From: Halosolutus gelatinilyticus
GTDB taxonomy: Archaea; Halobacteriota; Halobacteria; Halobacteriales; Natrialbaceae
Assembly: GCF_023028105.1 (NCBI RefSeq)
Contig: NZ_CP095491.1
Span: 1,426,001-1,490,000, forward strand
Reading direction: 5' to 3'
Length of the DNA: 64,000 nucleotides
Of this stretch, positions 57,548-60,157 are shown in pieces (within the stretch, counting starts at the first letter, position 1; every line of letters begins with the position of its first letter). Below the pieces are notes generated by a model. That model searched no databases, was not told the origin of the DNA, and saw only the letters and a list, made by a program, of their open reading frames with translations. The position numbers were made by a program, and so were the translations under genes.

Positions 57548-58228
57548 TCAGGTCGTGCGAAACGCCCGATCGCCGGCGTCGCCCAGACCGGGGACGATGA
57601 AGCCGTCGTCGTCTAAGTGATCGTCGATCGAGACGGTCAGCAGGTCGACCTCCGGGAACGCCCCGCCCACGCGGAGCAGTCCGTCGGGCGCGGAGACCGC
57701 GGAGAGCACGATCAGGTGCTCGGGTTCGGCTTCGGCGCTTTCGAGAACGTGGTCGAGGACGGTGCACATCGTACTCCCCGTCGCGAGCATCGGATCGGCG
57801 ACGATCACGGTGTCCTCCTCGTGGATCTCGGGGAGTTTTACGTAGTCGACCGTGATCGGGAACGACCCGTCCTCGCCGCGGCCGGCTTCCTCGTCTCGGC
57901 TCGCGCTGATGACCCCCTGCCGGGCGCGGGGAAACGCCTTCAGGAGCCCCTCGACGAACGGCGTCGCCGCGCGCAACACGTTGATGATGACGACGTCGTC
58001 GAGCCCGCGGACGCGTTCGCCCATGGTCGTCTCCAGCGGCGTCTCGATCTCGACGTACTCGGTCTCCATGCGGCCGTCGATGATCTCGTAGCCGCAGATC
58101 CGTCCGAGTTTGACGAGCCCCTTCCGGAAGCTGACCTGTTCGGTCTCGACGTCCCGGAGCCGCGAGAGCGTGTCCTTCGCGAGTGCGTGCGTGACCAGAT
58201 ACGCGTTATCCCGGTCTTCGATCGTCAT
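57548..58228 (-). CDS. upp: Uracil phosphoribosyltransferase
   Basis: A 226-residue pyrimidine-salvage enzyme that joins uracil to PRPP to make UMP. The PRPP loop [14 protein letters not shown] (about residues 140-153) and a C-terminal uracil-binding segment [15 protein letters not shown] are intact. ATG 58228 ([16 protein letters not shown]) matches the usual haloarchaeal N-terminus; the ATG at 58258 would add ten residues. It is divergent from the Gln/Gly-rich protein. Confidence 0.96.
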
Positions 58229-58480
58229 ACCCGAATTCGCATCCGCAGGGTAGTTCATGGTATCGATCCCGCTTCACCCTCGAACGCGCGTCGCGCGACG
58301 TCGGTGGACGGTCGACGCCCCGTCCAACCGCCGGTTACTCGCTCGAATCGATCACAGCGTCCCGCTGTCCGAGGAAAAATCGCGCGAAAGAGCGGATTAG
58401 CCCGCGAAACGATCGTAACGGTTGGCCCGCTTTAATCGGCCGATCGGCGTACCGGGCCGTGCCTCAAGAGGCGAATCTCG

Positions 58481-59305
58481 ATGAGTCACCAGTACCAACA
58501 GACGGGCGACCAGTACGGCGGACGTACCGGTCAATACGAGCGATCGAGCGGCCAGTATCGTCACCCAACGGAGCAGTACGGACAGCCGGGCGGGCGACGA
58601 CCCGGCGGCCGGACGGGACGGACAGACGGAAGTCAACGGGGCGGGCAACAGACGGGCGGCCAGCGCGGAGGGACGTGGCAATTCGGCGGTCAGTACGGGG
58701 GCTCCCGAGCGCAGCAGCCGCGGTCCTTCGAGGACCACATGACCGACGAACTGCGCATCGCCCTGGAAGACTTCGGCGAACTGTCCCACGTCGCCGCCTG
58801 GTGTGCGAAGGAGTGCGCCGTCGGCGCACCCGAAATCGGGATCTGCGCCCGGATCTGCCAGGACGTCGCCGAGATCGCCGCGCTCAACGAGATGTTGATC
58901 GCCCGCGACTCGATGTTCGGTCCCGAGGTCGCCGACGCGTTCCTCCGGATCGGAACCGAAGCGCTCGCCGAACTCCGGCGGTTCGAACACCGGTCCCACG
59001 TCGCCGAGACGATCGCCACGATCGATCGGACGATGAACGCCTGCGAGAGCGTTCTCCAGCAGGTGGACGGCCGGCGGATGGGCAACACGACCGCTCGACC
59101 GGCGGACCAGATGAGCGGACAGCCGACCTGGCAGAGGGGACGTCAGCGGACCGGACAGGTGGACAGCCAGCAGTACGGCGGCCAGTCGACGGGTCGCTAC
59201 TCCGGCGGGTACGGAATGCAAGGGCCGTCCGAGCAGGGACAGTACGGGCAGGGGACGAGCGGCTATCCGCCTGACGAACGGCCGGCCGACGAGCAGCGGT
59301 ACTGA
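58481..59305 (+). CDS. Gln/Gly/Tyr/Arg-rich protein with a CxxxC helical core
   Basis: A 274-residue protein in three parts. Residues 1-80 and 205-274 are low-complexity, made of Gln, Gly, Tyr, Arg, Ser and Thr with recurring QYGG and GQYG units. Between them (about 82-200) is an all-helical core with Cys108-x3-Cys112, Cys122-x3-Cys126 and Cys188. CxxxC pairs on helices recall DUF326/Csp-type four-helix copper-binding proteins, but most of their cysteines are absent, so metal binding is only possible. The tails resemble prion-like or RGG/Tyr-rich condensate-forming regions and are unusual in an acid-proteome halophile. No signal peptide is seen. A TATA (ctttaat, near 58429) lies about 50 bp upstream. 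Confidence 0.75.
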   Translation: MSHQYQQTGDQYGGRTGQYERSSGQYRHPTEQYGQPGGRRPGGRTGRTDGSQRGGQQTGGQRGGTWQFGGQYGGSRAQQPRSFEDHMTDELRIALEDFGELSHVAAWCAKECAVGAPEIGICARICQDVAEIAALNEMLIARDSMFGPEVADAFLRIGTEALAELRRFEHRSHVAETIATIDRTMNACESVLQQVDGRRMGNTTARPADQMSGQPTWQRGRQRTGQVDSQQYGGQSTGRYSGGYGMQGPSEQGQYGQGTSGYPPDERPADEQRY

Positions 59306-59434: not shown

Positions 59435-60157
59435 ATGGAAGAGAGCATCTCGGGATTCAAGGTCCGCGGTGACTGGGGCGACGTCGTCGAACACGGCGAG
59501 CGCATCACCCGCGCGCTCCGCGACGCCGGCGTTCACGACCCTGACGCCGACTACGGCGTCCGCTTCGCCCGCGCCTTCGAGGAGTGGGAGGAGTGGCGTC
59601 CGAAGGCCCACGAAACGCTCGAAACGGAGGTCAGCGAGAAGACCGCCGACCAGGCGAGCGTGGAGGAAGGAAAGGGCGAGAAGGCCGGCAGAGAACCCGA
59701 CGAAGACATCAAGACCGCCGGCGAGAAACTCTCCGAGTCGTACGAACGGCTCGAAAAGGACGACGCGGAAGGCGCGGTCGGCACCTGGCGGGAGTCGATC
59801 GACTACGTCGCACGCGCCGCCGACTCGGCCGGCCGCAAGGCGCTTCGCCGGGTCGAGGATACCGTCTACCAGAACGTGATGACCCAGCTCGCACCGTACT
59901 ACTTCGACAACGAACTCATCAGCGCCAACATCCAGCAGTCGGCCCGCGGCAACGGCGACGAGGAGCAGTTCATCTTCGAGGTCAACGTCAACGACGACGT
60001 CCTGAAAGACGACGTCTCCGACCGCCTCGACGAACTCGAAGACGAGGTCGATCGGTGGCACGTCCAGGTCGAGAAGGACACCGACGCCGCCGAGGCGATC
60101 GAGGGGGTCGAACCGCCGCCGGAAAGCGAGGACGAGACGAAGTCGACGACGAACTGA
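59435..60157 (+). CDS. DUF5828-family protein
   Basis: A 240-residue acidic protein of a haloarchaeal family. The N-terminal block FKVRGDWGDVVEHGERITRA is followed by a charged coiled-coil-like region (about 60-115). The C-terminal part reads RVEDTVYQNVMTQLAPYYFD and EEQFIFEVNVNDDVL. Function unknown. A TATA (gtttatacc, near 59397) lies about 35 bp upstream, and a terminator-like structure follows at once. Confidence 0.85.
   Translation: MEESISGFKVRGDWGDVVEHGERITRALRDAGVHDPDADYGVRFARAFEEWEEWRPKAHETLETEVSEKTADQASVEEGKGEKAGREPDEDIKTAGEKLSESYERLEKDDAEGAVGTWRESIDYVARAADSAGRKALRRVEDTVYQNVMTQLAPYYFDNELISANIQQSARGNGDEEQFIFEVNVNDDVLKDDVSDRLDELEDEVDRWHVQVEKDTDAAEAIEGVEPPPESEDETKSTTN

Follow-up and report, generated by a model that had tools for sequence, protein, structure and literature searches.

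A haloarchaeal protein family with glutamine- and glycine-rich tails around a thiol-depleted four-helix core homologous to the copper-storage protein Csp3

The gene described here lies in a 64-kb stretch of haloarchaeal DNA (referred to as the window, which means the whole stretch analysed) and forms an open reading frame that starts with ATG and ends with TGA. Its product possesses five cysteines, all of them in a central core, and a long low-complexity tail on either side of that core (Table 1). The flanking upp and DUF5828 genes are also found at most of the examined loci of window-family orthologs. A TTTAAT stretch about 45–50 bases upstream of position 58481 is a candidate archaeal TATA element.

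Table 1. Features of the tailed gene and its neighbours, with coordinates of the window.
Feature	Coordinates	Strand	Remarks
CDS of the tailed, cysteine-poor, Csp-derived protein	58481..59305	+	274 aa plus stop; conserved in 29 close orthologs
N-terminal Q/G-rich low-complexity tail, aa 1-79	58481..58717	+	Predicted disordered; composition conserved, sequence not
Core, aa 80-200, predicted Csp-fold four-helix bundle	58718..59080	+	AF2, Foldseek, VIA-align, hhalign
C108xxxC112, end of helix 1 (core C29, C33)	58802..58816	+	C29 aligns with MtCsp3 Cys38 at the bundle mouth
C122xxxC126, start of helix 2 (core C43, C47)	58844..58858	+	C43 aligns with MtCsp3 Cys54 at the mouth; C47 takes the position of MtCsp3 Asn58 / BsCsp3 Asp42
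His173 (core H94)	58997..58999	+	Aligned with MtCsp3 His110 at the mouth; 63/63 rows
Cys188 (core C109), helix 4, towards the far end	59042..59044	+	17/17 of the window's family and 20/20 untailed Csp3s; absent in other tailed groups
C-terminal Q/G-rich tail, aa 201-274	59081..59302	+	Predicted disordered
C-terminal aromatic residue Tyr274	59300..59302	+	Tyr, Phe or Trp end in 41/58 tailed proteins
upp (uracil phosphoribosyltransferase), divergent neighbour	57548..58258	-	Synteny marker
DUF5828, downstream neighbour	59435..60157	+	Synteny marker in the window's family

The N-terminal tail contains 16 Gln, 22 Gly, 6 Tyr and 10 Arg among its 79 residues, the C-terminal one 13, 15, 6 and 7 among its 74, and neither has any Cys or Lys. 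Gln and Gly together reach a fraction of 0.48 over 60 aa of tail. We compared this with the window itself and 20 stretches of 20 kb sampled from the host genome, where a 60-aa segment with at least 12% Gln and a Gln plus Gly fraction above 0.33 was found in none of the other 1517 ORFs (≥100 aa) and in none of 406 rough gene models. The rule behind the 406 models favours acidic ORFs and itself omitted the basic-tailed gene at 58481–59305, which makes the list of 1517 ORFs the better comparison. These tails are extreme for the host genome and not a product of chance. In addition, they are basic in an acidic proteome, as the initial annotation had held: net acidic residues per amino acid amount to +0.045 in the background genes and +0.083 in the acidic core, versus −0.039 in the tails. 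The AlphaFold2 model of the whole protein gives the tails a pLDDT of about 40–49 and no secondary structure, and shows the core as helical and confident. The layout first read from the sequence, Gln/Gly-rich tails around a CxxxC core, is thereby confirmed as two Cys-free, predicted disordered tails around two CxxxC pairs, and both composition and disorder prediction agree with a prion-like domain rich in Gln, Asn, Gly, Ser and Tyr.

The tails are present in all 29 close orthologs that were read (L031, whose frame is broken, was excluded from this set), so that the tail-less orthologs named beforehand as evidence against the initial reading did not appear. Their median composition is 24% Gln, 23% Gly, 7.6% Met and 1.6% Tyr, without Cys. 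The window protein departs from these medians with 8% Tyr and only 2% Met in its tails, the genome sample having 1.3% Met. As judged from the ortholog sequences, the richness in Tyr and Arg is peculiar to the window ortholog and the conserved make-up is Gln and Gly with Met. The initial description of Gln/Gly/Tyr/Arg, RGG-like tails therefore holds for Gln and Gly and fails for Tyr and Arg, and its analogy with eukaryotic low-complexity proteins is weakened to a shared Gln/Gly-rich disorder, since the Tyr and Arg stickers are not conserved. For the same reason we give very little credence to an RGG-type RNA- or DNA-binding protein; the basic, Arg-containing tails of the window ortholog would suit it, but Arg is not kept in the tails of the family, most distant tails contain only a few percent of charged residues, and our Pfam and NCBIfam searches found no nucleic-acid-binding domain.

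We then compared cores and tails in the 294 ortholog pairs whose core identity is at most 75%. The median identity is 0.64 for the core and 0.38 for each of the N and C tails, with shuffled tails giving 0.31 and 0.33, respectively; a slight sequence signal thus survives in the tails, and it is mainly their composition that is conserved, as had been anticipated. Distant relatives, whose N-tail lengths depend on the start codons as called, have Q-rich tails as well. L088b is an exception, its tail being short, basic and charged and the C-tail absent; L095, L097 and L098 depart as well in having the N-tail only. Moreover, 41 of the 58 tailed proteins terminate in Tyr, Phe or Trp, compared with 5.2% of the 406 background gene models, although this count is not a probability because related sequences are not independent. 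Ten of the 17 non-aromatic ends belong to one genus (g15) and are Arg or Gly.

The core was modelled by AlphaFold2 from 13 sequences as four long helices, with pLDDT 90.9 and pTM 0.84. A Foldseek search of the PDB placed Csp1 and Csp3 entries on top (best E 3.9e-3, TM 0.77), and VIA-align gave Z 15.5 to 5nqn, the Cu(I)-Csp3 structure (rms 2.6 over 112). The first 20 rows of the latter are Csp entries or the Csp-like entry 3lmf, and they rank above the PA2107 entries (Z 13.5–13.7), the first designed bundle (Z 12.7) and many unrelated helical bundles (Z 9–12). With Foldseek E-values as modest as these, fold similarity by itself would leave kinship with Csp undecided, and it is sequence that decides it. 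In fact, the host genome also encodes two untailed Csp3 paralogs, L002 and L003, which both match DUF326 and reach E-values down to 3.9e-19 and 9.7e-16, respectively, against Csp3s of the PDB; the window core matches L003 in BLASTP with E 6e-11, and the family profile matches the haloarchaeal Csp3 profile in hhalign at 99.0% and E 4.2e-18. The link to Csp is drawn from these own-genome paralogs, the profile-profile comparison and the fold search, since neither the window protein nor its 22-row profile retrieved a Csp when searched by sequence against the PDB, the hits being only designed helical bundles and a chaperonin. The protein has no match to DUF326 (PF03860) even at E 10, and no Pfam or NCBIfam model recognises it; a Pfam Bee_toxin match at E 0.3 was dismissed as chance. 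From the predicted structure and these comparisons, the core is a homologue of Csp3 and forms a four-helix bundle with the Csp/DUF326 fold, which bears out the family that the initial annotation had named.

The thiols of this bundle are mostly gone. Untailed haloarchaeal Csp3s (n = 20) have 13–17 Cys, mostly 15, which is also the number in L002 and L003; the window protein, with five, lies far below the 13 or more core Cys that we took as the mark of high capacity. A core matching a known family had been named in advance as grounds for doubt. Such a family was indeed found, but most of the Cys that define it are lost here. The residues were mapped to MtCsp3 through a BsCsp3 alignment and the numbering in PMC10155185, and C29, C43, C47 and H94 correspond on this basis to the Cu(I)-entry mouth (Table 1). 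The AF2 helix boundaries, from which the mouth geometry was read instead of from coordinates, put the mouth residues at the end of helix 1 and the starts of helices 2 and 4, which all lie at the same bundle end. Four of the five Cys and one His are thus predicted to line the copper-entry mouth. The H104/H108/H110 mouth motif of MtCsp3 is reduced to the equivalent of H110, core positions 89 and 92 being Phe and Arg. Among 63 rows, untailed proteins included (the 64 tree rows minus L088b, with L032 not among them), H94 and C47 occur in 63, C43 and C29 in 62 and C33 in 58; the ortholog L032 has lost the equivalents of both C122 and C126. That this mouth of four Cys and one His persists across widely diverged members of the thiol-bearing branch says that the thiols still matter there, and it argues for a part of copper or redox in the branch of the window.

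This conservation, with its mapping to the MtCsp3 mouth, is the chief argument for a low-capacity Cu(I) sensor, buffer or chaperone, in which the mouth cluster would be the function and the tails would only solubilise the protein or dock it to a partner. Methionine is a possible Cu(I) ligand, and its enrichment in the tails of the close orthologs would fit as well. However, the tails persist in a Cys-poor branch that has no CxxxC pairs, the loci examined have no conserved copper-gene neighbour, and Met is scarce in the tails of the window protein; we regard this explanation as rather unlikely, although as the strongest of the alternatives. For the window ortholog, the idea of a Met-rich copper tail is ruled out by that scarcity. 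It is improbable too that the protein is a redox switch, whose paired CxxxC motifs (or tail Met) would oxidise under stress and toggle assembly. Both pairs do lie at the same bundle end and many orthologs have Met-rich tails, yet the Met enrichment is not universal, and Csp3 thiols are reported in PMC5171941 to be slow to oxidise.

The phylogenetic trees, one of 64 rows with 15 of the 29 close-ortholog cores and one of 72 rows, contain a single change of tail state, the untailed group forming one side of a 100/100 branch; removal of the Cys columns leaves this grouping as it is. Later trees dispense with L213 and with six more rows, namely near-copies together with the long-branched L088b. Among the tailed proteins, the basal ones hold 8–9 Cys, having lost those at core positions 15, 19, 75, 79, 105 and 109, which lie nearer the far end; the family of the window and three other groups have 4–6, and a further branch has 0–2. 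This Cys-poor branch, which has lost the CxxxC pairs and the mouth His and retained the Q-rich tails, is nested among the tailed proteins (99/95), and still so after deletion of the Cys-bearing columns (95/94). Its profile matches that of the window family with E 1.7e-16 and that of the untailed Csp3s weakly (85.7%, E 5.5e-6). The sequences thus indicate that thiols were lost stepwise, from 15 to 8–9, to 4–6 and to 0–2, and that the tails were kept, an order that presumes a root on the untailed side and fits the two bacterial Csp3s with 18–19 Cys in PMC5171941. Deep forks are unsure, because the alignments hold only 107–123 columns and several branches are long. The Cys-poor branch, which keeps its tails, argues for a role of the tails without the mouth site. 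One Q-tailed protein, L206 (G295:C1:1535167-1535880), has two Cys-poor bundle cores in tandem. At the L088 locus (G367:C1:1074786-1075898) two tailed genes form a tandem pair, the second of which has a short basic tail, no C-tail and a long branch.

Of 125 genomes of the window's family, 35 gave a match at E 2.1e-41 or better, the named relatives being Natrinema, Haloterrigena and Halopiger (Natrialbaceae), Natronorubrum and Natronoglomus. With a class-wide core profile (E ≤ 1e-20), tailed, thiol-bearing relatives were found in 55 of 391 haloarchaeal genomes, in 21 of 86 genera and five family codes. At E ≤ 1e-15 a broader profile matched 202 of the 391, mainly through lower-scoring Csp-like loci; of 20 such loci that were read, 18 are untailed and two (L158 and L161) tailed, so 55 is a lower bound. 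In a phylum-wide search at E ≤ 1e-10, 16 of 196 genomes gave a match; they all belong to the same order, and no match lay outside it. Public plasmid records label untailed relatives 'four-helix bundle copper-binding protein', and matches over more than 90% of the core in Halorussus vallis and a Halolamina strain are labelled 'hypothetical protein'. The neighbours of distant relatives are NAD kinase, uracil-DNA glycosylase, nuo genes and an amidohydrolase; as these differ from those of the window gene, we dropped the attempt to deduce function from genome neighbours. The tailed gene at the L095 locus adjoins an IS605/TnpB-like ORF.

The gene is also patchy. We picked 17 genomes of relatives for the absence of a strong hit, and all of them have both upp and DUF5828; between the two lies a gap of 109–450 bp without a core in 15 cases and a broken remnant of the tailed gene in two (L185 and L187, from G060 and G059). 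The gene, being lost in relatives, is dispensable and not essential. Such losses, even in genomes chosen for them, would be expected if the tails were neutral baggage that slippage in GC-rich repeats had added to a decaying Csp paralog, and so would the hypervariability of the tails and the tandem repeats present in those of some orthologs, for example L039. Against this, no tandem array exists in the tails of the window protein itself, the tail composition is held across families, most members retain the aromatic C-terminus, and the core is strongly constrained, with 32 invariant columns across 29 sequences. We therefore think it improbable that the tails are mere baggage.

That the Cys were mostly or wholly lost while the tails stayed suggests that the tails, and not copper storage, are now what the protein is for. 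The explanation that we favour, with moderate confidence, is a haloarchaeal family derived from Csp3 and turned into a cytosolic, multivalent low-complexity scaffold, with the mouth as a Cu(I)/thiol regulator in the branch of the window. Its ancestor would be a cytosolic Csp3 whose bundle was extended on either side by a long, mostly uncharged Q/G-rich tail and then relinquished copper storage through stepwise loss of thiols, with the tails retained; storage could be covered by the two untailed 15-Cys Csp3s of the same genome. If the core is still tetrameric, as in characterised Csp3s, it would display up to eight tails, and these, with their mostly aromatic C-terminal ends, could drive multivalent assembly into a condensate or soft aggregate. 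The contacts would be hydrogen bonds and aromatic interactions that need no charge, so they would survive molar KCl. In the branch of the window, packing or the oligomeric state would be tuned by a small number of Cu(I) ions at C108, C112, C122, C126 and H173, or by disulfides at this site; the scaffold of the Cys-poor branch would act metal-free. We propose more tentatively the full course of events, a salt-tolerant condensate scaffold that gained its tails first and shed its storage thiols later, with a Cu(I)/thiol switch surviving at the mouth in one branch and gone in another. Several observations count against a scaffold: the mouth site is conserved, the gene is patchy, some orthologs have tail repeats, which slippage alone can make, the tail of L088b is charged and basic, the C-tail is missing in L088b, L095, L097 and L098, and L032 has lost its second Cys pair. 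The overall interpretation of the initial annotation is partly supported: it was right on the DUF326/Csp fold and on the conserved tail composition and weaker on the eukaryotic analogy, and a metal-, redox- or stress-linked assembly protein able to condense in high salt would be its hypothetical part.

Three kinds of known proteins are comparable. First, the Csp3s (MtCsp3, BsCsp3 and SlCsp3; DUF326, PF03860) share the four-helix bundle, homologous sequence, CxxxC pairs and mouth His with the window protein, which like them has no evident signal peptide by eye. They are tetramers of Cys-lined bundles according to PMC5171941, which gives the 18–19 Cys of two bacterial members. The window protein differs from them in its five Cys, against those numbers and the about 15 of haloarchaeal Csp3s, in the loss of all helix 3–4 thiols save C188, in its long Q/G tails and in escaping the DUF326 model. 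Within the Csp3s, the RkCsp3 subgroup is likewise a natural variant with copper sites partly missing, but, according to PMC10155185, it lacks the mouth Cys and His motif and retains the core clusters, so that the window family, with the mouth kept and core thiols lost, is the reverse case. Second, the untailed haloarchaeal 'four-helix bundle copper-binding proteins' such as L002 and L003 are a sister group with a homologous bundle, 13–17 Cys and no tails. Third, prion-like low-complexity domains, as in FET proteins and yeast prions, are Q/G-rich disordered tails. The tails of the window protein resemble them in being Q/G-rich and predicted disordered; they differ in that the Tyr/Arg stickers are not conserved, no RNA-binding domain was found, the host is prokaryotic and assembly is what we infer. 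We found no description of tailed Csps, haloarchaeal Q-rich proteins or haloarchaeal phase separation in the literature searched, which was mostly open, with few preprints or subscription journals. The archaeal prion screens that Zajkowski et al. are said to have made in 2021 might include some of the tailed proteins.

If the favoured explanation is true, the family would be a prokaryotic low-complexity scaffold whose descent from a metal store can be traced stepwise in living species. The natural series of 15, 9, 5 and 0–2 thiols, tailed and untailed, invites the questions of what a Csp bundle does when it does not store, and whether low-complexity tails assemble proteins in a cytoplasm of molar salt, in which phase separation driven by charge should fail. 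Moreover, the family assignment gives an identity to proteins currently annotated as hypothetical.

Two further loci, L194 (G009:C2 near 928366) and L195 (G014:C1 near 1693317), contain long low-complexity frames rich in Q/G/R or Q/G/H, in which no Csp core was seen by eye; they are possibly partners of the tailed proteins or a separate family.
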